From a virus, in the IMG/VR virus record IMGVR_UViG_3300010885_011782, positions 1 through 31,432 of that record: 31,432 nucleotides of DNA, one strand, 5' to 3'. Positions 1,047 to 27,880 of the stretch are shown piece after piece. Position 1 is the stretch's first letter. Each line of letters starts with the position of its first letter. Below the pieces are notes generated by a model. It was not told the DNA's origin and ran no database searches. It saw only the letters and a program-made list of their open reading frames with translations. Made by a program: the position numbers and the translations under genes.

Positions 1047-4000
1047 ATGCTTAATATTTGGACACAGCCGTCAGGATACACTTGGTCAACTAATCAATTT
1101 GGATTTGATAATGGTGCAACCTATTTCGATCAACAACATACAATATTTGATGTTGGCCCTATTGTGGAGCGAATTAGTGTATTGTTACCATTACCTGTTG
1201 TTTTACCTACCGTAATTCCAACAACTGCAAATGCAGTACCATACGACGGTACTGGGCATCATCCTACTGCGCCTTTACGTAACAGTGCAGGATCTCCTTT
1301 CCTCCGATACCCTATAAACAGTTATATAGATAATGTATATGCTATGCGTACTGATTTGCCTAATGCACGTACAGTAAGTAATTTAGTAGTATGGGACCGC
1401 ATCAACGGCGGCGAACAATTTGATCCTTCTGGATACAGTGGATTCATGTATGCATGGGGACAATTTATAACACACGAACTAGAATTTGCTCGCGGCGGCA
1501 CTGTCGATATTAGCGTAACTGTTCCAAGCGACGATACAAATTTAACGCCCGGCAGTCGCATACCAGTTACCCGTAGTGCTGTTGTTTTTAATACTGGAGT
1601 TAATAACGTATTAGCAAATTTTATAAATGACACAACAGGCTGGATTGACGGAACTGTTATCTACGGTTTAGCATATCCTCCAGGAGTTCAACAAGGCTCA
1701 ACGGTGTTTCAGAATCCAGTTAATTTACGAGAAGGTGGAAGAAATGCCACTACTGGTAAATTGTTAACTTCGGGCAGTGGATTGTATGCTCCCGTTGATC
1801 CTGCTACAGGTATGTTTATTTTCGGAGACCCTAGAGGAACAGAAAATCCAGATCTAGCATCCGTACAAACTTTAATGATTCGAGAACATAACTGGCATGT
1901 TGCAAGATTAACTTTGCAAAACCCGGGTTGGAGTGGTGAACAATTATATCAACGTGCCCGTGCATTAGTGATTGCAGAAGAACAAATTATTACATACAAT
2001 GAATGGGTTTCAAAAGTAGTTGGAGCCGGTGCGATTCCGCCGTATACTGGATTTAAATCTAATATAGATGCTACTATAAGAATAGAATTTGCGGCAGCTG
2101 CCATGCGATTTGGGCATAGTATTGTGTCCGGCGCACAAGATAGAATAGACGAACAAGGTAATATTACTGAATCATTAACTTTGGGTCAAGCGTTCTTTTT
2201 AACACCTGCACAATTTGAACGTAATGGCGGCGCTGACGGATTTTTACGTAAGTTAGGTGCAGATATTTCAAACAAATTAGATGTATACATTATTGAAGAT
2301 TTACGTAATTTATTAAATGATCCACCGGCCGCATTAGATTTAGCAACTACTAATATCCAACGTGGGCGTGATTTAGGATTACCTAGCTTAAATCAAATGA
2401 GACAAATATTAGGGTTATCCGCGTATACAAGTTTTGAACAAATAACCACAGACGTTACCATTGCAAACGGATTAAGAGCGGCATACACTAACATAAACGA
2501 TATCGATTTATGGGTAGGAGGTCTGGCGGAAAATCGTGTTAACGGTGCAATGGTTGGGCCTACATTCCGTGCTATTATGATCGATCAGTTTACAAAATTG
2601 CGTGATGGCGATTCGCTATGGTGGGAAAATAAATTATGGAGTCCTGAAGATTTACAATGGATTAAAGGTACTACATTATCTGACATAATTTTACGCAATA
2701 CTAATACCCAGGCCATGCAAGCAGATGCATTTGTAGCCGTAGAAAGAGCAGATCTTTATAACGGAACTGTTCCAACTATATCAGCTAGAACATATCCTTC
2801 TGCATTAGGCGTTCCACCTGCACCAACTAACCCAATAACATTCTCAATAATCTCTGGTGCATTACCTCCAGGATTGGCGGTTGTTGGCAATACCATAAAA
2901 GGTATACCATACGGAGTTGTACGAGATACTACATACACATTTTGTATACGTGCTAGCGACGGGAAAGACATTGCTGACAGAACATTTAAGATTAAAGTTG
3001 CCACCGGTGGGCCGCCGGAATGGCAAACGGCTGGAGGATTATTACCAGTAGGTACAAATAATCAAAGGTACATACTAAACAATAGTTTTATTAATTATTC
3101 AATAGTTGCTAAAGATTTAGATAATCTGCCAGTTACATACTATATTGCCAGCGGTGATGGCGATCTTCCGCCCGGTGTAACATTAACTCCAACCGGTACA
3201 TTAACTGGATTTGTAAATCCAGTATTGGCTATAACACAAGCTGTAACTGGCGTCGGAGCATTTGACCAAGATTTATATGATAGTGGTTTTTATGATTTTG
3301 CTAGCAGACCTACTAACGGTTATGATTCATACATATATGATCAGCAAACTTTTGATTTTAGTACTCCAACATTGCCGCCAAAAAGTATTAATCAAAGATA
3401 CGAATTTATTGTTACTGCGGTATCAGGTAACAAAATAACTAAAAGAATGTTTGGTATTTTTGTGGTAAGTCCTGAATTATTAACTGCGGACGATGCGGCT
3501 ATTTCCGATGATACCACAGTATTCACCGCAGACGTTACACCACTTGAAGCACCGTTATTTGTTAATGATAGAAATTTAGGTATTGTTAGAGCCAATAATT
3601 ATATCACTCTTGAAATTAGCACATTTACAAGTAGTACAACTGTTAATCCCACTTTTAGTATTTTAAACTCTGCTCCCGCATGGATTGCATTTACGCAGTA
3701 TACGATCGATACCGCTGTTACATATTTTGGATCAATTTATATATGTACTACTGCTCATAAATCATCCGGTACCTTTAATGCAATAATTAACAATATCACG
3801 TATTGGGTTAAACAAGCGTTGCCTCCCGGGTTGGCATTTTCTCCGGTAGGATCGATTGTATACTTGGCAGGATTTATTCCCTTCCAAACTAATATTAGTA
3901 AAACATACACCTTCACTATACTTGGAACTAGAGTTGGCGAAGATGTTCAACCAGCAGTTACTAAAAAAGTGTTTACAGTAACAGTTATTGGAGAAATTAA

Positions 4001-5333
4001 TAATACTATTTCGTGGATCACCGGGCCTAACTTAGGTGAGATTCCAGCAAACTATAATAGTAATTTAAATGTACAAGCTACTGCTCAAGATTCAAGTGTG
4101 ATATTAATTTATAGTTTAGCAAGCCAACCATCAGAAATTGGACTACCTCCGGGATTAAGTCTAGATGTCACTGGAGAAATTACTGGAAAAGTTAATCAAT
4201 TTGGTGTTGCAAATATTTCAAGAATAACTACTTTTGAAAACGGTAATTGGTATTTGGATAGGCATTTTACCACAATTGACGTTAACCATCAATATGACAT
4301 TATTGGAAAAAGAGGTTTAATATTATTTGATCAAGACACAGGTTTTAATATTGACCGTGGTACTACTACATTTGATAGGATTTATAAATTTACAATTCAA
4401 GTAACTGACCAGTACGGGTATGCTATAAGCAAGCAACAATTCCAATTAAAAGTAAGTACTCCTAATCAGATATTGTACTCTAATATTAGAACACAACCAT
4501 ATTTAAAACCTACGCAACGTAGTTTATGGACTACATTTATTAACGATCCTACTATATTTTCAATTAACAGTATATATAGACCAGCTGATCCAAATTTTGG
4601 AACCAGAACAGATTTAGGTATGCTGGTATATGCTGGTATTGAAACCAAACAAGCGGCGGCTTATGTTGGGGCGATGGGGTTAAACCACAAAAATAAAAGA
4701 TTCCGTTTTGGATCTATAAAAAAAGCTGTGGCTAAAATAAACAATATAACTGCTTACGAAGTAATTTACGTAGAAATGATGGACCCATTAGAAGCTAACG
4801 GAAATGCGTTGCCAAATACTATCAAGTATAATACATCGCGCAGTTTAAAAACTACAGCAGATATTAGTAACGCCATATTAGTCGGCGCTGTAGGGAATAA
4901 CATTGCCGAGCTTGATGCTAATATTGCAACCATGAATCTTGCAGAATCTTGGTTAGACCGCCCTATTGATAATGTTACTGTAGATAGTAATGCGTTTCAC
5001 GTAAGTGACACAACTACGAACACATTCTACCCTAGCAGTATTACCAATTGGCAACGCAATATTGAAAACGTAGGCTTGGCAGAACGTAACTATTTGCCCG
5101 TTTGGATGCGTACAATCCAGCCAGGCGAAAAACAACAACTAGGATTTAAATTGGCTGTTCCGCTATGTTACTGTAAACCAGGCACAGCTGACAGCATAAT
5201 TTTAAACATAAAACACAGCGGTTTTGACTTTAGAACACTGGATTATACAGTGGACCGCTACATAATAGATTCTGTGGACGGATATTCAAACGATAAATAT
5301 CTAGTGTTCAGAAACGATAGGATAACCGTATGA
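1047..5333 (+). CDS. Giant virion-type protein with animal haem peroxidase domain and He_PIG-like repeats
   Basis: 1428 residues. Residues of about 65-580 match the animal haem peroxidase family (myeloperoxidase/peroxidasin type). Visible hallmarks are the distal-histidine motif WGQFITHELEF with H143, the catalytic GDPRGTENPDL segment with R263 and E266, the REHN helix after it, the proximal-histidine motif RFGHSIV with H357, and NIQRGRDLGLPS with N436. The Asp that forms a haem ester in mammalian enzymes is Thr here (T142), so covalent haem attachment at that point is not expected. About four putative Ig/cadherin-like (He_PIG) modules follow, with LPPGL cores near residues 606, 705, 924 and 1030, then a unique C-terminus. 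No signal peptide is visible. It sits between fibre-like genes and overlaps the next one by 4 bases, so it is probably a virion component. The peroxidase call is strong. Enzymatic activity, and how haem would be acquired, are unknown. Confidence 0.88.
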   Translation: MLNIWTQPSGYTWSTNQFGFDNGATYFDQQHTIFDVGPIVERISVLLPLPVVLPTVIPTTANAVPYDGTGHHPTAPLRNSAGSPFLRYPINSYIDNVYAMRTDLPNARTVSNLVVWDRINGGEQFDPSGYSGFMYAWGQFITHELEFARGGTVDISVTVPSDDTNLTPGSRIPVTRSAVVFNTGVNNVLANFINDTTGWIDGTVIYGLAYPPGVQQGSTVFQNPVNLREGGRNATTGKLLTSGSGLYAPVDPATGMFIFGDPRGTENPDLASVQTLMIREHNWHVARLTLQNPGWSGEQLYQRARALVIAEEQIITYNEWVSKVVGAGAIPPYTGFKSNIDATIRIEFAAAAMRFGHSIVSGAQDRIDEQGNITESLTLGQAFFLTPAQFERNGGADGFLRKLGADISNKLDVYIIEDLRNLLNDPPAALDLATTNIQRGRDLGLPSLNQMRQILGLSAYTSFEQITTDVTIANGLRAAYTNINDIDLWVGGLAENRVNGAMVGPTFRAIMIDQFTKLRDGDSLWWENKLWSPEDLQWIKGTTLSDIILRNTNTQAMQADAFVAVERADLYNGTVPTISARTYPSALGVPPAPTNPITFSIISGALPPGLAVVGNTIKGIPYGVVRDTTYTFCIRASDGKDIADRTFKIKVATGGPPEWQTAGGLLPVGTNNQRYILNNSFINYSIVAKDLDNLPVTYYIASGDGDLPPGVTLTPTGTLTGFVNPVLAITQAVTGVGAFDQDLYDSGFYDFASRPTNGYDSYIYDQQTFDFSTPTLPPKSINQRYEFIVTAVSGNKITKRMFGIFVVSPELLTADDAAISDDTTVFTADVTPLEAPLFVNDRNLGIVRANNYITLEISTFTSSTTVNPTFSILNSAPAWIAFTQYTIDTAVTYFGSIYICTTAHKSSGTFNAIINNITYWVKQALPPGLAFSPVGSIVYLAGFIPFQTNISKTYTFTILGTRVGEDVQPAVTKKVFTVTVIGEINNTISWITGPNLGEIPANYNSNLNVQATAQDSSVILIYSLASQPSEIGLPPGLSLDVTGEITGKVNQFGVANISRITTFENGNWYLDRHFTTIDVNHQYDIIGKRGLILFDQDTGFNIDRGTTTFDRIYKFTIQVTDQYGYAISKQQFQLKVSTPNQILYSNIRTQPYLKPTQRSLWTTFINDPTIFSINSIYRPADPNFGTRTDLGMLVYAGIETKQAAAYVGAMGLNHKNKRFRFGSIKKAVAKINNITAYEVIYVEMMDPLEANGNALPNTIKYNTSRSLKTTADISNAILVGAVGNNIAELDANIATMNLAESWLDRPIDNVTVDSNAFHVSDTTTNTFYPSSITNWQRNIENVGLAERNYLPVWMRTIQPGEKQQLGFKLAVPLCYCKPGTADSIILNIKHSGFDFRTLDYTVDRYIIDSVDGYSNDKYLVFRNDRITV

Positions 5334-19234: not shown

Positions 19235-19251
19235 TTTGCTAACCATATTAC

Positions 19252-19259
19252 GATAAATA
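19252..19259 (+). promoter_or_regulatory. T4-type late promoter motif (GATAAATA) inside a terminator
   Basis: GATAAATACT matches the T4 late motif at 7 of 8 core positions and extends into the ACT that often follows it in T4. It overlaps the left arm of the terminator at 19255-19288. The first gene downstream starts at 19309. Confidence 0.55.
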
Positions 19260-19308: not shown

Positions 19309-19680
19309 ATGCGAATTAAAGATCTTTGTGAAAGTGCAGGCCAAGAGCTAGATAAGGATGTAAAACATCAGGATAAACACGGGCTAGGTTACGATTTAGC
19401 AGACGATTTGTTATTCTTCATGCATCACGATGATGATGCATATCGACGCCATACATATCCAAGCATTATGAAAGCCCGTGATCGCATGGCTGGAGACAAG
19501 CCTACAGATATGGCGTTATTCAGCGATGCTGTTAACGAAGTATATGAAAAGTATCGTAATAAATTCCACGATGTCAGAGCACTTCCAGAAAAACTAGACG
19601 AAGAAACCCTAGGTGAAATTTGTGCTCACATGCATGAACACGAAACTAAAAAGATCCAAGACGGTCATTACGAGGATTAA
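19309..19680 (+). CDS. Small phage protein with capsid-targeting-like N-terminus
   Basis: 123 residues, acidic and His-rich (HHDDDAYRRH near 45, HMHEHETKK near 108). The first residues MRIKDLCE-SAG fit the T4 internal-protein capsid-targeting pattern: Met, basic residue, short amphipathic helix, then an LxE site (L6-C7-E8) where the prohead protease gp21 would cut. The rest is helical without a family I recognise. It opens a long late operon in which several proteins share such N-termini. If the reading is right it is packaged in the head and perhaps delivered with DNA. That is inference from a short motif. Confidence 0.55.
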   Translation: MRIKDLCESAGQELDKDVKHQDKHGLGYDLADDLLFFMHHDDDAYRRHTYPSIMKARDRMAGDKPTDMALFSDAVNEVYEKYRNKFHDVRALPEKLDEETLGEICAHMHEHETKKIQDGHYED

Positions 19681-19682
19681 TA

Positions 19683-20903
19683 GTGTTACTCCGTGAATTA
19701 TTCCTTAAGGAAAATCAAGCAGGGCCGCATCCTACAACAGGTATAGCACTAGGCCGTGCTTTCAACCACCCGGAGCATTTTATTATATTCTACGGATTGT
19801 CTGGTATTAAGGAAGGCATACAGCATTTAGAAGATGCTGTTGGAGAAGACAAACAATTAAGGTTTAAATGGGACGGCAATCCTCAAATTTATTGGGGACG
19901 TGAAAAGAAGAACGGCCCATTAATTCTAGCAGGACATAACGGTTGGGCAAAAGGTGGTCGCGGTAATGGTACTACAATGGATGATTTTACTAGTCCTGCG
20001 GCTGTAGAGAATTTTATTCTTCATAAGAGTGGTGAAGGCGCCAAAGGAGAAGAAATAACTTCAGAGCGTCAACGATTTGCCAGCGAGTTTAGTAACCTAT
20101 ATCCTATTTTTGATGCGGCAACTCCTAAAGATTTTGTAGGATTTGTTTATGCCGATGCATTGTTCTTGCCTAGTACAAAACCAACAGCGCAGAATGGAAT
20201 TTATACTATGCATCCTAACCCGCATAGTAAATCAGAATACCATGTAGATGCAAACGGTACAGGGCCGTTGAATTTAGGCAAACGTATTCCTCGAGCACAA
20301 GCAATGGTTGTAGCACATGGAACATTTAAAACATTTGGTGCGCCAGATAACGAGCAACTACCAGTAGACGATTTTAGCAAATTTGATAAAAGTCCCGGTT
20401 TAATTGTAGTAAGTCCAATATACAATAATGAAAAACCTGATGTGGACATGACTAGCATTAACCAAGTTAAAGAAGTAGGTGGTTATATTGACCAGCACGG
20501 AGATAACATTCAAAACTTTGTAACACATATTCCTACCGGCGATAGACAAGGATTCTTTTATAAATTTTTGAACCAACGTAATTCAGCAAACGACTTTGAT
20601 ACAATTACGCCACAAATGTTTTATAACTGGATGGCACAACCTAACAAAGATGGTAAACCGCAAGTTAGCCTTAATAAACAACAAGATATTAAAAATACAG
20701 ATTTAAAATTCAATGCGTTAGCGCCTATGTTTCACTTGATGAAAATCATGCGTCATGCGCGACATGCTATCAATGATAGTGTAAATAGTAAACACAAGCC
20801 AGAATGTTGGGCAACTAATCCCGAAGGATTTGTACGGTATGCAGATCCAAAGAAATTCCAACACGGCCATGTTAAATTTCAAAATGCGGGGTGGAAAGAT
20901 TGA
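19683..20903 (+). CDS. Possible ligase-like nucleotidyltransferase with capsid-targeting-like N-terminus
   Basis: 406 residues from a GTG start 2 bases after the previous stop. The N-terminus MLLRELFLKE-NQAG again fits a T4-type capsid-targeting sequence with an LKE cleavage site. Residues of about 58-71 read LRFKWDGNPQIYWGRE, resembling the KxDG adenylation motif of DNA/RNA ligases. Later GFVYADALF (about 154) and EGFVRYADPKKF with HVKF near the end (about 380-400) could correspond to motifs III, IV and V. A phage family with a KWDG core is known to me only as an uncharacterised group. Assignment as an active ligase is uncertain because spacing and motif V are not canonical. If packaged, it would be an enzyme injected with the genome. 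Confidence 0.5.
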   Translation: MLLRELFLKENQAGPHPTTGIALGRAFNHPEHFIIFYGLSGIKEGIQHLEDAVGEDKQLRFKWDGNPQIYWGREKKNGPLILAGHNGWAKGGRGNGTTMDDFTSPAAVENFILHKSGEGAKGEEITSERQRFASEFSNLYPIFDAATPKDFVGFVYADALFLPSTKPTAQNGIYTMHPNPHSKSEYHVDANGTGPLNLGKRIPRAQAMVVAHGTFKTFGAPDNEQLPVDDFSKFDKSPGLIVVSPIYNNEKPDVDMTSINQVKEVGGYIDQHGDNIQNFVTHIPTGDRQGFFYKFLNQRNSANDFDTITPQMFYNWMAQPNKDGKPQVSLNKQQDIKNTDLKFNALAPMFHLMKIMRHARHAINDSVNSKHKPECWATNPEGFVRYADPKKFQHGHVKFQNAGWKD

Positions 20904-22390
20904 GTCAAGTAGCAATTATATTCGGGCGTTTTAATCCGCCACATAAAGGACATAAAGTTGCATGGAAACGTGCGGCTACTATTCCACATTGGTTTGTAGG
21001 CACTAACGAGTCAACAGTTGGTCCTACTGATCCATTGCCGTTTAATATTAAAGAAAAAGCAATGTTGGCAATATATCCCGAACTCAAAGGACATTTGATC
21101 ACACAGCAAAGTTGGTTTACCATGGCATCCGCTATATTTGAACGTTACGGCGATGTTGAATTAATTTGTGTAACAGATGAGGCATGGGTAGTTCCAGGTT
21201 TGCAAAAAGCCAACGGTAGAGAAGATCGTCACGGATACTATAAATTTTCTAACATTAGATTATTTCACAAGGATGTTGGAGCCGCAAAAGCAGACATGCG
21301 TAAAGGCAAAGCAAGCGATTTACGTGCTGCCGCATTAGCCGGCGATAGAGAAGCATTTACAAATGCCGCTGGCATATCGTCAGAAACTATGGTTGCCGGG
21401 CATCCATATTTTGATTTAGTAGTACATTATTTAAAACCATACGGTGCAAAAGCTGAAAAAGCAAATGCAAAGAAACTTGCGACCGCAGAACCAGTAAATA
21501 CAGTAGAACCACAGGAACCAGTTATGAAACAAGGACCAGCAAAAACAGAAGTAGCAGAATCAATGCACCGACGTGATGCGTATCAACGCGATGAATATAG
21601 TGCTCACCAAGGCTTTGGCCGAGCGCACAAAGAGTGGGACGAAGGTAACACTGAGCCGCCAAATAATTTTGCTATTCATATTAACGGCAAGAAGTGGAAA
21701 GTATTACCAGGCCATGGAACTTACGCAGATGATCACCGTGAACAAAAACAACATCGTCAATTACAAGATATGTGTGCTAAGAAGACAGCTTCTACAGGTA
21801 AAAAATGGACTGTTCATCCCACTGGTGAACAAGCAACTGTTGAAAGTGTAGCAGAAAGTAAAACTGTAAAAGCAGAAGCTCCTAAACCTCGTAACTTTGT
21901 TGCCAAGAATGCCATTAATACAGGTGCAGGCGCACATAAAGACAAAAAGAAAGCTGCCAAACAAGGCGATGTTAAACACAAAAAACAATTGGAATTTGCA
22001 GAAGGACGATTAGGGTCTAGTTTAAATTCAATGTTTGAAGAAAAGTTTCGTGCTAAATTAAAAGAAGCTGTGCTACGTGCTGATACGGCAAGTTCAATGC
22101 CTAACTTACGTATCCATCCAGATTTAGATAACTCTAGTCCATATAAAGCATACCGATACGGTGTTGCTATGGCAAGCCAACCCCGTGGTCCTGCTGACGA
22201 AAAAGGCCCGTTTGGTCAAAAGATGATTACTATAGGTTACACAGAAGCAGATAATGAAATTATACGTGCAACTGATAAAAAAATGCATTCTAAAAGTCAA
22301 GCTATGTCAGATGGTAAAAGTAAAGAATTAGATGATACCCATACAATTAGCCCAATTGCAAAACCTAAACGTAACCAATACGGTGTATAA
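20891..22390 (+). CDS. HxGH-type nucleotidyltransferase fused to head-protein-like modules
   Basis: 499 residues. Residues 7-170 look like the cytidylyl/adenylyl transferase superfamily: VAIIFGRFNPPHKGHKVAW with H18-K-G-H21, and ISSETMV (about 162) near where ISSTxIR is expected. NMN adenylyltransferase and related enzymes have this fold; the substrate is unknown. From about 200 the protein is charged and linker-like, with a module HINGKKWKVLPGHGTYADD (about 258) and the Lys-rich AHKDKKKAAKQGDVKHKK (about 345). The last 90 residues form a domain shared with the protein at 22704 (ending SPIAKPKRNQYGV). The start is ambiguous: GTG at 20891 or TTG at 20900, which overlaps the upstream stop. The fusion suggests a packaged enzyme. 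Confidence 0.6.
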   Translation: MERLSQVAIIFGRFNPPHKGHKVAWKRAATIPHWFVGTNESTVGPTDPLPFNIKEKAMLAIYPELKGHLITQQSWFTMASAIFERYGDVELICVTDEAWVVPGLQKANGREDRHGYYKFSNIRLFHKDVGAAKADMRKGKASDLRAAALAGDREAFTNAAGISSETMVAGHPYFDLVVHYLKPYGAKAEKANAKKLATAEPVNTVEPQEPVMKQGPAKTEVAESMHRRDAYQRDEYSAHQGFGRAHKEWDEGNTEPPNNFAIHINGKKWKVLPGHGTYADDHREQKQHRQLQDMCAKKTASTGKKWTVHPTGEQATVESVAESKTVKAEAPKPRNFVAKNAINTGAGAHKDKKKAAKQGDVKHKKQLEFAEGRLGSSLNSMFEEKFRAKLKEAVLRADTASSMPNLRIHPDLDNSSPYKAYRYGVAMASQPRGPADEKGPFGQKMITIGYTEADNEIIRATDKKMHSKSQAMSDGKSKELDDTHTISPIAKPKRNQYGV

Positions 22391-22707
22391 TGAGACAATA
22401 TAGAATTACCAGTGCAGATTTAAATCAAGACAGTCCCGACGACTGTTATATTGCGCCGAATGATCCTATACACGAAATGAAAGCAATAGCACACTTAGGT
22501 GGGCTAGGCGGTGATGCAAGATTACATAAATTACGTGCCGAACAAGGTAGTAACATAAGTGTTACTGGTAATGAAAAGGGCCGTATACAACGTGAAATGA
22601 ACATACAACCAGGCACAGATGAATGGTTTAAACTATGGTTCAGTCTTCCTAAATTTATGGAAGGCGAAAAAGCCGTAGGAACAGGATTTAGAGGTGTAAG
22701 AAAATGA
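22390..22707 (+). CDS. Small phage protein of unknown function
   Basis: 105 residues, starting at the last base of the preceding stop (TAATG). It has the opening MRQYRITSADLNQDSPDDCYIAPNDPI cut by acidic residues, a Gly-rich turn (AHLGGLGGDARLHKL), and PGTDEWFKLWFSLPKFM toward the end. The opening looks familiar from marine T4-like phages, but I know of no function. It is bracketed by two genes that share a C-terminal domain and overlaps the second by 4 bases, so it belongs to the putative head-protein operon. Confidence 0.6.
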   Translation: MRQYRITSADLNQDSPDDCYIAPNDPIHEMKAIAHLGGLGGDARLHKLRAEQGSNISVTGNEKGRIQREMNIQPGTDEWFKLWFSLPKFMEGEKAVGTGFRGVRK

Positions 22708-23057
22708 GAGCAAAAGAGTTTGTTAACGAAGCTAAAAATCAGGAAATACGCCGGGCTGTGAAATTAGCCGGACCTTACGCCAAGAGATACGATCAAATTG
22801 GAACTTATTATGATATGTATCGGTTAGGTGTTGCTATCGCCGGTGGCAAAGATACTCCTGCCGAAGGCCCTGCTAGAGATAATCCAACTGTTTGGATTAT
22901 GAGCGCAGAAGAAGACGAAAAGATTAAGGTAGCAGAAAAGGTTATGGGAATTAAAGGAACTATTGTTTCTCCTAAAGGTCAAAGTCAAGAAATGACTGAC
23001 TTAATTAATTCTACTAGCCCAATTGCAAAGCCTAAACGTAACAGGTACGGTGTATGA
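22704..23057 (+). CDS. Small putative internal head protein sharing a domain with the upstream fusion
   Basis: 117 residues. The N-terminus MRAKEFVNE-AKN is very like the capsid-targeting sequence of T4 internal proteins (MKTYxEFIAE-A), with a VNE cleavage site. Residues 25-117 match the last 90 residues of the protein at 20891. Shared features are a YRxGVAxA motif, a GP turn, spaced Glu/Lys helices, and the terminal SPIAKPKRNxYGV. The last 12 codons are almost identical at DNA level between the two. It is therefore a stand-alone copy of that domain, apparently with its own packaging signal. The domain's activity is unknown. Confidence 0.62.
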   Translation: MRAKEFVNEAKNQEIRRAVKLAGPYAKRYDQIGTYYDMYRLGVAIAGGKDTPAEGPARDNPTVWIMSAEEDEKIKVAEKVMGIKGTIVSPKGQSQEMTDLINSTSPIAKPKRNRYGV

Positions 23058-23260
23058 GATTGCGAGAATTATTAGCAGAAGCGGGCGAAACAAACGCAGG
23101 ATCTATAGCGTCTGTTCCATCTGCTATAGGAAATAAGCCCGGAAAAGGCGGTAAAGCACCTAAACAATTTAAAGTTAAGAGTGTAAGTGCTACTAATTCT
23201 AACGTAAACATATTCGGAGCAGTGGGTGAAAACCAGGCTGTCGCCGTAATCAAAAGATAA
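23054..23260 (+). CDS. Tiny putative internal head protein
   Basis: 68 residues, overlapping its neighbour by 4 bases. It begins MRLRELLAE-AGET, an excellent match to a T4-type capsid-targeting sequence with an LAE cleavage site. After cleavage a basic Gly/Lys/Ser/Asn-rich peptide of about 59 residues would remain (NKPGKGGKAPKQFKVKS, then VNIFGAVGENQAVAVIKR). Small basic peptides of this kind in T4 (internal proteins) lie with DNA in the head. The stop codon overlaps the next late-type promoter. No homologue is recalled. Confidence 0.55.
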   Translation: MRLRELLAEAGETNAGSIASVPSAIGNKPGKGGKAPKQFKVKSVSATNSNVNIFGAVGENQAVAVIKR

Positions 23261-23263
23261 ATA
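23256..23263 (+). promoter_or_regulatory. T4-type late promoter motif (GATAAATA)
   Basis: GATAAATATT overlaps the stop codon of the preceding gene and lies 20 bases before the ATG at 23284. It probably gives extra late transcription of the three large putative head-core genes downstream. Confidence 0.55.
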
Positions 23264-23283: not shown

Positions 23284-24264
23284 ATGGCAAGAGAAGATCT
23301 ATACAAAACAGCACGTCAAAGTGCAAAACTATTCAAACTAGTTCAAGAAAATCAAGAACTAGAAAGCTGGGTATCTAAAAAGATTACCAAAGCGGCCGCT
23401 GATATTGAAAGCGTTTATCAGTACTTGAATTTTGAAAAACATTTCAACGAACAGGAAAAAGCAATTATGTCCAATACAAGTATCAGCGAAGCAACTCGCG
23501 AAGAATTGCGCGGTAAACTACTAGAAGCAAAAGCTAAAGTAGCCGCAATGAAAAAGAAAGCTGCCAAAGACAAATCTGAAAAGATGGACGAAGATAAAGA
23601 AATGAAAGTTGGCGATACAAAGAAAACACGTACCGGCGAACTAACAAAGACTAGTACTGGTGTAATACATAAGAACACCAGCTATCATGATGATGGTGAT
23701 GAGATTGCTTCTAATGCTAAATCAGGTAAAGGCATCAAGAGCCATGCTAAAGCACAGTCAGCCGCTGAGAAGAAAGAAAAAGCTCCAGCGCAAAAGATGT
23801 CTCCAAAGAGTGCTAAAACATGGGGTATGTCAAACAGCGAAAAGTTTGACAACCGTGACAAAGTAGACGAAGCTAAAGCCAAATGTTCATGTGAGAAATC
23901 AGGTAAAGCAAAATGCGCAGTACACGGTACTGTGGCAGAAGGCTTAAAAGGCGGTCAAAAGAAATTAGATAAAAACCACAACGGTAAACTAGACGGCCAA
24001 GATTTTAAAAAATTACGTGCTGAAAGAAAAGTTGACGAAACTGTAAGCCCAGAAAAAACTAAAGTTCGTGAAAGCATTGCTCGTGCTCGTGCATTGTTAG
24101 AAGCTGGCAAGAAGAAACCAAAGTGGTTAGAAAAAGCTGAAGTAGAAGCTGAAGAAAAATCAGGTCAAAAAGTTTCTAAGAAAGAAGAAAAGAAAGTTGG
24201 TATCGTCAAAGAGTCTACAGAGTTTGAACGTATGAAAACTTTGATGACACGTTTAAACGGATAA
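23284..24264 (+). CDS. Lys/Glu-rich, probable prohead core or internal virion protein
   Basis: 326 residues. Residues 1-55 form a helical domain (REDLYKTARQSAKLF, then ELESWVSKKITKAAADIESVYQYL) paralogous to the C-terminus of the next protein. The body is extremely rich in Lys and Glu. Residues of about 197-216 contain CSCEKSGKAKCAVHG, a possible metal knuckle. About 228-241 read LDKNHNGKLDGQDF, which fits the calcium loop of an EF-hand (D-x-N-x-N-G-x-L-D-x-x-D). LLE-A sites near 80 and 271 fit the prohead protease consensus. This composition is like T4 prohead core proteins that are digested during maturation. The role is inferred. Confidence 0.58.
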   Translation: MAREDLYKTARQSAKLFKLVQENQELESWVSKKITKAAADIESVYQYLNFEKHFNEQEKAIMSNTSISEATREELRGKLLEAKAKVAAMKKKAAKDKSEKMDEDKEMKVGDTKKTRTGELTKTSTGVIHKNTSYHDDGDEIASNAKSGKGIKSHAKAQSAAEKKEKAPAQKMSPKSAKTWGMSNSEKFDNRDKVDEAKAKCSCEKSGKAKCAVHGTVAEGLKGGQKKLDKNHNGKLDGQDFKKLRAERKVDETVSPEKTKVRESIARARALLEAGKKKPKWLEKAEVEAEEKSGQKVSKKEEKKVGIVKESTEFERMKTLMTRLNG

Positions 24265-24268
24265 TCCA

Positions 24269-24985
24269 ATGGATATGAAACGCATTTTACAGGCAATGGA
24301 CGGCGTTGCCACCAAACCTGTAGAAGGCGGTAATAACATGAAGAAATTTCTTCAAGTTGTTACAGAAGGTGCTAATCCACATAAGGTTACATTGCCGGTA
24401 CAAATGGCCATGCAACATTATTCCGAAGTTAAGACTGCGGCTCCAAAGCCAATTAAAGAAGTTAAAAAAACAGCAATGTCTGGTTTGTTACAGCAGTATG
24501 TTGTAGAAGCTGAAGAAGATTTGTTAGAAGAAAAAGCCGCACGTAAAGAAATTATCAGCGAACAAGCCCGTCGCATTGCAGATCGAGTTCTTGCAAAAGA
24601 ATCACGTGTTGATGAACTTAGTAATCGTGCGTTAGGCGACTATAAAAAGGCCGCAGGTGCTGATGCTAGGGCCGCTGACAAAGCAGGAGATTTTAAACGT
24701 GCTGACAAACGCTTTAAAGGCATTGTTAGTGCTACTAAAAAAGAATTTGCTAATGATCTTAAAGGTCATAAAAAACAAGATGTAAAAGAAGGTATTGATG
24801 CAGAAGGTGGCATGGCTCGTGAGCAATTAATTAGCATGGCACATCACGCTTTAGAACTGGCAAAACATTTAGAACCTGATACACAATTAGATGCTTGGGT
24901 CCAAACAAAAATTGGTCTAGCTAGTGATTATATTCAAACAGTCAGTGACTTTGTTAAATATGGTCATCAGGATGTAAACGATTAA
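24269..24985 (+). CDS. Probable prohead core or internal virion protein
   Basis: 238 residues, start at the ATG 4 bases after the previous stop (weak ribosome site, probably coupled). It has MDMKRILQAMDG, then at 24-35 MKKFLQVVTE-GA, which looks like a capsid-targeting sequence moved inward, with a VTE cleavage site. The middle is charged helix. Residues 183-238 (MAREQLISMAHHALELAKHL, then LDAWVQTKIGLASDYIQTVSDF) repeat the N-terminal domain of the preceding protein. Such domain sharing among neighbours suggests duplication within a set of head proteins. No catalytic motif is seen. Confidence 0.58.
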   Translation: MDMKRILQAMDGVATKPVEGGNNMKKFLQVVTEGANPHKVTLPVQMAMQHYSEVKTAAPKPIKEVKKTAMSGLLQQYVVEAEEDLLEEKAARKEIISEQARRIADRVLAKESRVDELSNRALGDYKKAAGADARAADKAGDFKRADKRFKGIVSATKKEFANDLKGHKKQDVKEGIDAEGGMAREQLISMAHHALELAKHLEPDTQLDAWVQTKIGLASDYIQTVSDFVKYGHQDVND

Positions 24986-24994
24986 GAGAACACT

Positions 24995-27880
24995 ATGGAC
25001 TTTAAAAAATTATTAGAAAATTTGGAAAGAATAGAGAACGAAGCTCTATTAGAACGTTATCATTTAAAAGATGTGGAAGCAACTGCTGACATCGATGATA
25101 AAGCAGAACGTTATGCCGCGTTAGCTAAATTGGCTAAGTCAGGTGGCTATGCTGGTATGTTTGATCCAGTATCTGGTAATTTTATCGATACGAATGGCAA
25201 TGCCGCTTGGATCGGTGCTTACAAAGCAGAAGTTCAACAACTAGCACAGCACAGATTAATTCCGCCAGCCGCAAGAGAAAAAACTAGTCACTTGCTAGGC
25301 CGTATGGGCATGGATGAAAAAGAAGCAGGATCTATCCAGAAAGATGTTCAGGCTAGAGAGCAAGCTATTGAAAAAGCAACGGGCTTTATCAATAAAGCGT
25401 TAGAAACATTTAAGTCGGCAACTCCTACTAAAACTAGTGAATCAAAAAATCTATCAGGTCTTGCACAAGCACTAACAGAATCGTTTGGTTATAACTTTGA
25501 AAATTTAATCGAAAGCATTAGCCAAGCAGATCACAAATATATTAAACAAGTTGTAGCATTAGTTAAAGATATAAAAAACGATGACGATGTTCCAGAATTC
25601 ATGGGCAAGTACAACATGTATATGCAACGCAGAGATATCCTAGTTGAACAAATTACTAAACTTGTTGCTAGAATTAAAGCAAAGCAAATAAAGAAAGAAT
25701 ACAGAGAAAGCCAAGGCAATACGTTAGGTTTAACAGAACGTACATATTTGTATTGGGAAGGCGGAAATCAATTACTAGAATTCCATCTTTATTATACACC
25801 TGCTGGCGAATTGATTGAATACAAATGGACTGATCGTGAAGATAAACCATTCGATACTGGCATCCTTCTTGAACAGAAAAAAGGTGAACCATTAGGATTC
25901 TGGGGGAAGATTGGCCAAGGTATAACTGATACTGGTCGCGGAGTTGCTAACGGTGCTACATTTGGTTACAACGATAATATTGTTGCCGGATTAAAATCAC
26001 TATTCAAAGGTACTAAGTATGCTGATGAATTACATCGCGAATTTCAAATTACCCAAGAAATTAAAAAACGTAGTCCTGTTTTATTCACTACTGGTAAACT
26101 TATAGGACAAGTTGCTAGTACTATGGCTGCTACAGCCGCAGGGGGTCCTATGGCAGGACTTGCATTAACAGCGGCGCAGGTTGGAGATTCGTTTACCGAC
26201 ACCACTGACAAGTGGCATGCACAGACTGATTATGAAAATCAACAAAAGAAGAAAAATGAACCTGTAGATCCAACTAAAAAGAAAAAATCAAAGCCTTTGG
26301 ATTCGCAGGGACATCCGCAGGGTGGAACACCAGATATGCCGCAGGGTGGAAATCCTAATGTAAAAACTAATACAGGCACAGGTGATCAGATTCAACAAGG
26401 AAGACCAGGTGGCGCTCCAGATCCAGAAGTTACAAAAATGCAACAGGCATTAATTGCCGCTGGTTTTTTGCCAAAAGGCGGCGCTACTGGTGTAATGGAC
26501 GGTACTAATAACGACCCAACTATTAAAGCCATTAAAGCATATAAAAAAGCAAAAGGACTTCCAAGTGATGCTGATGCGATTGCCGCGTTAGTAGGTGTTG
26601 CGGCTCGAGAAGTAGATACAGGTAAAGAACAAGCAAAAGAAAGTATTGTATATTCTAGCATGTCCGACGCCGAACGTATGGCTTACATGCGTGACAAATT
26701 AGCATTGTTAGAAGCAGGCGAAATAATAGCGGCTGAAGCATTACCATTTCTTGCTAGATTTGCTGTTGGTGAAGCTGGTTATGCAAGTATTTTAGCAAGA
26801 CTTGGAATTACTACCGCGGTCGATGCTGAAAGAATTTTAGCACCGTTAGCTAGAGTAAGTTCTATCGTAGGCAGAGGTGGCAGTGGCATACGAACAGTTA
26901 AAGTAGCAGGACAAGAATGGACAGAAGTTGGCGGCTTCTGGCATACCACAAAAGCTGGTAAAACATATACACAAAGTGCCCAACAACTTGCATCTGAAGT
27001 TAAATTAGAAGCTGAAGTGGCTGCTGGAAGATTGCATCCACCAGGACCACACACTCCAGGTGCTAATGCGCCACACACTCCAGGTGCTAATGCTCCAGGT
27101 GCTAATGCTCCAGGTGCTAATGCTCCAGGTGCTAACGGTTCAAATATTAATACTAATAATATTAACATAAACATCGGTGGACAGCCAGCTACAGCCGCAC
27201 AAGCCGCAACTGCGCTAGGTGTTCCGGCGGCTGAAGCGGCAAGTACTGTAGCGGCCATAACAAGAACTGCTCGTGGTACACAATTCTTGAGAAGAATCAT
27301 GCTTATGGCTCGTAGGGGTGTACGAGGAATAAGAAGATTTACATGGAGTAGAATTTTTATTACAACGGCTCTAGCGTTGACTGCGTTCCATTACATGTTT
27401 AATGACAATGGAGATCTTGTTCCAGAAGTTGGCACCGATGATCAGGACGATCCAACAGTAGTAGTTACTCCGCCAGTTACTCCGCCAGTTACTCCGCCAG
27501 TTACTCCGCCAGTTACTCCGCCAGTTACTCCGCCAGTTACTCCGCCAGTTACTCCGCCAGTTACTCCGCCAGCAGTTCAAGAAGTAGATGCAGATCTCGA
27601 AGAACTCAAACAATTGATTAAACAATATTTTGATGCGTTCCCAGCTGATCCTTTAGATCCAGCATTAAAAGCCGATATTGAAAAATTAGGTATTAAATTA
27701 CCAGCGGTGGAAGCAGGCACAGGTGACCAATCAGTAGGGAATGGTACTGGAACTAGGCCATCGTGGGCGCAAGGTCCATATGTTGATCCTTCTATAGTTG
27801 CTGCCGGGGAAAAGAATGGTAGTATCGATCCTTACAACGGTGGAGATGTAAATAGAACATCAGTAAGACAAGTTAGGTAA
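24995..27880 (+). CDS. Large modular virion-associated protein with PG-binding-like domain and proline repeats
   Basis: 961 residues. The start MDFKKLLENLERIENEALLE offers an LLE cleavage site near 20. Residues 1-270 are helical. An Ala/Gly hydrophobic stretch (about 370-395) follows, then Pro/Gly/Lys linkers. A domain at about 475-530 (VTKMQQALIAAGFLPKGG, then TIKAIKAYKKAKGLPSD) resembles a peptidoglycan-binding type 1 repeat. Next come tandem PGANA repeats, an Arg-rich helix (RRIMLMARRGVRGIRRF) leading into a hydrophobic FITTALALTAFHYMF (about 788-802), and nine TPPV repeats. This mix of wall-binding, basic membrane-inserting and extended segments would suit a protein that travels with DNA through the envelope, but no homologue with proven function is recognised. 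Confidence 0.55.
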   Translation: MDFKKLLENLERIENEALLERYHLKDVEATADIDDKAERYAALAKLAKSGGYAGMFDPVSGNFIDTNGNAAWIGAYKAEVQQLAQHRLIPPAAREKTSHLLGRMGMDEKEAGSIQKDVQAREQAIEKATGFINKALETFKSATPTKTSESKNLSGLAQALTESFGYNFENLIESISQADHKYIKQVVALVKDIKNDDDVPEFMGKYNMYMQRRDILVEQITKLVARIKAKQIKKEYRESQGNTLGLTERTYLYWEGGNQLLEFHLYYTPAGELIEYKWTDREDKPFDTGILLEQKKGEPLGFWGKIGQGITDTGRGVANGATFGYNDNIVAGLKSLFKGTKYADELHREFQITQEIKKRSPVLFTTGKLIGQVASTMAATAAGGPMAGLALTAAQVGDSFTDTTDKWHAQTDYENQQKKKNEPVDPTKKKKSKPLDSQGHPQGGTPDMPQGGNPNVKTNTGTGDQIQQGRPGGAPDPEVTKMQQALIAAGFLPKGGATGVMDGTNNDPTIKAIKAYKKAKGLPSDADAIAALVGVAAREVDTGKEQAKESIVYSSMSDAERMAYMRDKLALLEAGEIIAAEALPFLARFAVGEAGYASILARLGITTAVDAERILAPLARVSSIVGRGGSGIRTVKVAGQEWTEVGGFWHTTKAGKTYTQSAQQLASEVKLEAEVAAGRLHPPGPHTPGANAPHTPGANAPGANAPGANAPGANGSNINTNNININIGGQPATAAQAATALGVPAAEAASTVAAITRTARGTQFLRRIMLMARRGVRGIRRFTWSRIFITTALALTAFHYMFNDNGDLVPEVGTDDQDDPTVVVTPPVTPPVTPPVTPPVTPPVTPPVTPPVTPPVTPPAVQEVDADLEELKQLIKQYFDAFPADPLDPALKADIEKLGIKLPAVEAGTGDQSVGNGTGTRPSWAQGPYVDPSIVAAGEKNGSIDPYNGGDVNRTSVRQVR
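27056..27139 (+). repeat. 15-bp tandem repeat encoding PGANA
   Basis: Five copies of CCAGGTGCTAATGCT (the first and last slightly varied), the first separated from the rest by 9 bases (CCACACACT). They encode an extended PGANA linker within the large protein at 24995. A 15-bp unit keeps the frame, so copy number can change without disrupting the protein. Confidence 0.9.
27464..27571 (+). repeat. 12-bp tandem repeat, nine perfect copies, encoding TPPV
   Basis: Nine identical head-to-tail copies of GTTACTCCGCCA with no substitutions. They encode a proline-rich rod just after a hydrophobic segment. Perfect identity suggests recent expansion or ongoing slippage, and copy number may vary between relatives. 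Confidence 0.95.

Follow-up and report, generated by a model that had tools for sequence, protein, structure and literature searches.

The locus described here raises the question of why neighbouring and otherwise unrelated phage proteins should begin with nearly the same short peptide. The window, meaning the whole 31,432-nucleotide stretch analysed (IMG/VR record IMGVR_UViG_3300010885_011782), is a 31-kb fragment of a freshwater T4-like phage. Between its Clp ATPase gene and its DNA polymerase B (polB) gene lies a co-directional gene run, and a preliminary description had read the genes at 19309-23260 as a run encoding head cargo with T4-like capsid-targeting leaders. Such a leader is present on four of the six genes in the range (19309, 19683, 22704 and 23054), and the window copies of 20891 and 22390 lack one. 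The likeliest reading is a modular cargo operon, with a ligase-like enzyme (DUF6267) among its products, whose leaders are capsid-targeting sequences processed by gp21. The six genes, named after their first nucleotide, and the motif ahead of them are as follows (a slash marks the predicted cut).

19251..19259, plus strand: late-promoter-like motif CGATAAATA, located 58 nt ahead of 19309, the first gene with a leader
19309..19680, plus strand: protein of 123 amino acids (aa); leader MRIKDLCE/S, variable linker, conserved domain
19683..20903, plus strand: DUF6267 protein; GTG start, leader MLLRELFLKE/N, predicted ligase-like fold
20891..22390, plus strand: cytidylyltransferase/NMNAT-like protein with a DUF7230-like segment and a C-terminal YG-tail domain; no leader
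22390..22707, plus strand: conserved protein of 105 aa; no leader
22704..23057, plus strand: protein of 117 aa; leader MRAKEFVNE/A and a YG-tail domain ending SPIAKPKRNRYGV; strict rule match
23054..23260, plus strand: basic mini-protein of 68 aa; leader MRLRELLAE/A, then a stretch whose counterpart in relatives copies the mature gp23 N-terminal arm, and an IKR end; strict rule match

Pfam, PHROGs and NCBIfam gave no function for 19309, 22390 and 22704, nor did Pfam or PHROGs for 23054. In the phage database, megablast returned no direct relatives of the window and tblastn none for 19683.

The leaders were assayed with a strict rule drawn from T4: the start, one to three residues, a hydrophobic residue or Ala, any residue, E/D/Q, two hydrophobic residues, any residue and Glu. 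Shuffles of residues 2-40 of the open reading frames served as the null model. Because the rule was fixed after the window leaders had been seen, held-out loci and T4 itself are the fairer tests. Two proteins of the window matched, with 0.05 expected, and a relaxed rule picked four of nine operon genes against one of 27 others (Fisher p = 0.009). Among 509 non-redundant operon proteins from related contigs, 36 followed the strict rule (0.65 expected), compared with 11 of 1294 proteins outside the operon (1.46 expected), several of these 11 being operon genes beyond the assigned borders. In held-out loci around DUF6267, 28 of 491 proteins matched, with 0.66 expected. The proteins counted are related by descent, and thus are not independent events. 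Glu was over-represented at the cut position, with 36 Glu to 53 for seven other residues together in the operon, and 11 to 55 elsewhere. Once the leader was removed, the mature sequences of the strict carriers sorted into 11 clusters, and no similarity was detectable from one cluster to another; some singletons may be chance. As a positive control, the rule selected six of 252 open reading frames in T4, namely IPII, IPIII, gp24, Alt, gp2 and 61.1. IPII, IPIII, gp24 and Alt are established head proteins, either internal or processed by gp21. The DNA end protector of T4 is gp2. The leader observation is therefore real and well above chance.

All four leader-like N-termini lie where they had been reported. 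Spacing is exactly that of T4 in 22704 and 23054, while the leader of 19683 is one residue longer and that of 19309 one residue shorter. Orthologues of 19683 with exact spacing occur (MRINEFLKE/A in L024, MRATEFLKE/A in L206), and 19309 orthologues keep the leader (MRINELLE, MRIRELLE, MRIQELLE) ahead of a linker that varies with indels. Orthologues of 20891 can also carry leaders (MKLRQLFESKK in L021, MNLRELFESTH in L087).

The preliminary description would have been refuted had the phage no prohead protease, and the check made in relatives did not refute it. The window is without a gp21 region, so we infer the protease from relatives: the gp21 family (PF03420) is present in the contigs of seven of them (G016-G019, G027, G028 and, as an interrupted copy, G030), and adjoins gp22/gp23-type genes in the six intact cases. 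Some of these carriers are relatives whose polB is 81-88% identical, and the others are further contigs in which the operon occurs. PF03420 was not found in a first set of mostly short contigs because these are fragments; longer contigs carry the protease. A profile detected gp23 in four relatives' contigs.

T4 gp21 cuts according to the rule L/I-x-E. The predicted gp23 cuts of the group fit it, being LAE/S, LSE/S or LME/S, and L-x-E stands there in every gp23 read. After the leader Glu, the 23054 family continues with TATAGATSAGNIATV and similar stretches; gp23 after its predicted cut reads SATAGATSAGNVATL. Alignments between the two begin at the same residue, in register with the predicted cleavage Glu. 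In the G016 proteome, gp23 was the best match for the mini-proteins of L012, L047, L070 and L115; none of 2000 shuffles scored as well for L012, L070 and L115, and one of 2000 for L047. A protein of cyanophage S-SM2 likewise copies the S-SM2 gp23 arm (0 of 2000 shuffles). Among T4 proteins, the mature part of 61.1 (L155, 18966-19130) matches gp23 best, with a score of 69 against 50 for the next (0 of 2000 shuffles). This register therefore gives independent support for a cut at the leader Glu, itself a predicted site. Judging from its leader MKTFKEFIKE and its copy of the gp23 mature N-terminal arm, T4 61.1 is likely a gp21 substrate, apparently unremarked.

Upstream of nearly all 19309 orthologues stands a GATAAATA-type core, and the late-promoter motif also precedes gene 5330 in the window. 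In G016, NATAAATA sites precede leader genes and virion-type genes; the control is noisy, with 25 sites compared with a mean of 10 and a maximum of 25 for permuted motifs. NATAAATA has been reported as the late promoter of cyanophage S-PM2.

The leader protein 19683 belongs to PF19782 (DUF6267; E=5e-10). K62-W-D-G (motif I, KxDG), E381-G-x-V and K398 are invariant in 24 aligned sequences, E381-G and K398 being assigned to ligase motifs IV and V by inspection. The AlphaFold model has a pLDDT of 88, with low confidence for residues 1-21. All 50 structural matches listed were RNA/DNA ligases, with Z of 4.9-7.5 and a root-mean-square deviation of ~4. Foldseek E-values were weak (0.065 or worse), and for this reason 19683 is called ligase-like and not a proven ligase; the model suggests a nucleic-acid-ligase-like enzyme. 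A sequence search of solved structures with DUF6267 gave nothing of note, and we found no literature naming DUF6267. In a viral structure library, 19683 matched a 591-residue S-PM2 protein named cytidyltransferase-like, which suggests that the DUF6267 and cytidylyltransferase domains may be fused there. The DUF6267 leader gene was also observed in very large T4-like phage contigs (L212, 383 kb; L230, 270 kb).

The adjacent protein, 20891, matches phrog_3041 (E=1.7e-12) and has the HxGH nucleotide-binding motif (IIFGRFNPPHKGH); matches to TIGR00125 and DUF7230 were below cut-off. Cyanophage S-SM1 has the same gene order, with a KWDG protein gene (T4-GC71) followed by the cytidylyltransferase T4-GC190, a protein that has been detected in S-SM1 virions. 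T4-GC190 of S-SM1 begins MKKFSAFLNE/A, and an F-[LI]-x-E/A leader is present in nine of nine cyanophage cytidylyltransferase homologues read. The strict rule finds no match in S-SM1 and a looser one gives GC190 alone; the strict rule thus misses cyanophage variants. A later paper described NMNAT-like proteins in other cyanophage virions, with the caution that carry-over of abundant infection proteins is possible. None of the literature searched linked capsid targeting to the cyanophage cytidylyltransferase.

The proteins also share C-terminal tails. A YG-tail domain finishing SPVAKPKRNKYG[IV] occurs in 58 proteins (0.31 expected), including those at 20891-22390 and 22704-23057 in the window. 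An IFGG..IKR(R) tail ends 27 proteins of relatives (0.02 expected), and the window copy of 23054 ends GENQAVAVIKR. Leader and one of the two tails are combined in many proteins. Among 46 members of the YG-tail domain there was one weak PHROG match; its AlphaFold model was poor (pLDDT 68, pTM 0.44), and a fold search on it was uninformative.

The run continues downstream as follows.

23257..23263, plus strand: second late-promoter-like motif, ATAAATA, 27 nt upstream of 23284
23284..24264, plus strand: protein rich in Lys and Glu; an EF-hand-like stretch scores weakly, below the Pfam cut-off; no N-terminal leader
24269..24985, plus strand: protein with an internal MKKFLQVVTE at residue 24; its C-terminal part has a stretch with relatives among cyanophage proteins
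24995..27880, plus strand: protein of 961 aa, the final large gene of the run ahead of the DNA polymerase; peptidoglycan-binding-like domain PF01471 (E=6.7e-5, just over cut-off) and PVTPPV repeats

MKKFLQVVTE in 24269 had been likened to the leaders. It is not N-terminal: relatives keep the upstream start MDMKRILQ, and in L017 an Ile replaces the internal Met. This rules it out as a leader and makes it at most a possible internal cleavage site.

Two further proteins were noted in passing. At window 1047-5333, where the surroundings are tail-fibre-like, residues 66-562 of a protein of 1428 aa match the animal haem peroxidase family (PF03098, E=1e-109); copies ~73% identical occur in relatives G012 and G016, and none was found in 50,697 phage records. 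The operon of some relatives (L002, 7445-7885; L019, 13475-13912) contains an inserted ferritin/Dps-like protein (FHWNVEGPLF), recognised only by eye.

Altogether, we favour capsid-targeting leaders on a cargo operon because the leaders form a family spread over unrelated proteins, gp21, gp22 and gp23 co-occur with it in relatives, the register with the predicted gp23 cut fits, a late motif is present and a relative of the cytidylyltransferase with this kind of leader has been detected in virions; the original proposal draws its support from the same lines. A similar start, MILRELFY(V/I)D, on a protein of the head gene cluster also speaks for it. The operon would be expressed late, and its leaders would attach proteins of unrelated sequence to the core of the prohead, a gp22-type scaffold. 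The phage gp21-type protease would cut after Glu at residue 8-10, so that mature proteins would be freed within the head before DNA packaging. Targeting by the leaders and their cleavage are likely. Ejection of the freed ligase-like enzyme and small basic proteins with the DNA, followed by early action, is plausible by analogy with IPI and Alt. The cytidylyltransferase would presumably be loaded via its own leader in relatives, or together with its ligase-like partner. For this phage, we infer packaging, targeting, cleavage, injection and early action alike. Several points weigh on the other side. The gp23 cut site is carried over from T4 by analogy, and the protease was found in relatives, outside the window fragment. 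Two leaders (19683 and 19309) are one residue off the T4 spacing, in 22704 a V takes the place of the T4 L/I, and two of the six genes are leaderless. Moreover, the window's own 23054 copy resembles gp23 weakly: 21 of 2000 shuffles were as good, and gp23 was not its top match.

The leaders might instead bind the prohead core for proteins that act in assembly, as additional scaffold or core components mostly degraded afterwards, and are not injected. In T4, gp21 also processes core proteins; the mini-proteins contain a copy of the gp23 arm, and a head-cluster protein between the portal and a gp67-like gene begins MILRELFY(V/I)D, seen for example as the leader-like MILRELFYID. However, a scaffold role is not evident for two enzyme-like proteins, one with a ligase-like fold and one a cytidylyltransferase, and finished virions contain the cyanophage cytidylyltransferase, so that we regard an assembly function as unlikely. 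The leader could also be another targeting signal, for example to tail or membrane, that resembles the T4 one; its register with the predicted gp23 cut, the co-occurrence of gp21 and the recovery of known T4 head proteins by the rule make this very improbable. Finally, 22704 and 23054 start in ATGA overlaps, and M-R and M-K starts are the rule, as would follow if translational coupling forced M-K/R or if neighbours had recently been copied at the DNA level. But a 74-nt gap precedes 19309, 19683 has a GTG start, and an overlap cannot fix Glu at residue 9-10. Nor did the scored rule demand K/R at residue 2, and the codons of the leaders show synonymous differences (AGA/CGA, TTA/CTA, GAA/GAG), as selection on the peptide would produce. 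Coupling was rejected on these grounds, and we give this last explanation next to no credence.

A more specific form of the cargo reading can be put forward tentatively: the operon may deliver a kit for nucleic-acid repair and cofactors (a ligase and an NMNAT-like enzyme) together with capsid-arm mini-proteins, leader and tails making up a two-part cargo code. More generally, the results suggest that the head-targeting code of T4 is recognisable in the sequences of distant T4-like phages, which would make virion cargo predictable in uncultured phages. They name candidate cargo, including a candidate ligase, flag the T4 61.1 product as likely cut by gp21 and offer a reason for the cytidylyltransferases in cyanophage virions.

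In kind the system is not new but a variant of T4 capsid targeting. As on IPI, IPII and IPIII, with similar processed leaders on Alt and gp24, a short N-terminal hydrophobic leader with a Glu cut site (predicted here) is carried by unrelated proteins, and a gp21-type protease (in relatives) and a T4-type late promoter accompany it. Unlike in T4, many carriers stand in one operon with enzyme-like proteins, the leaders are mostly MRxRE(L/F) and 8-10 residues long, and operon proteins have common C-terminal tails not known from T4. The 54-aa product of T4 gene 61.1, with its leader, gp23 arm copy and basic tail, has the design of the 23054 family, a likeness compared by design only. The DUF6267 model resembles RNA/DNA ligases (Naegleria RNA ligase, T4 Rnl2, REL1) in its KxDG motif and overall nucleotidyltransferase arrangement, whereas identity is ~10% and the structural match moderate. 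In S-SM1 and its relatives, as in the window, the cytidylyltransferase (T4-GC190) follows the KWDG (DUF6267-like) gene; the cyanophage protein has its leader and the window copy (20891) has none, whereas the freshwater operon holds many more small leader proteins.
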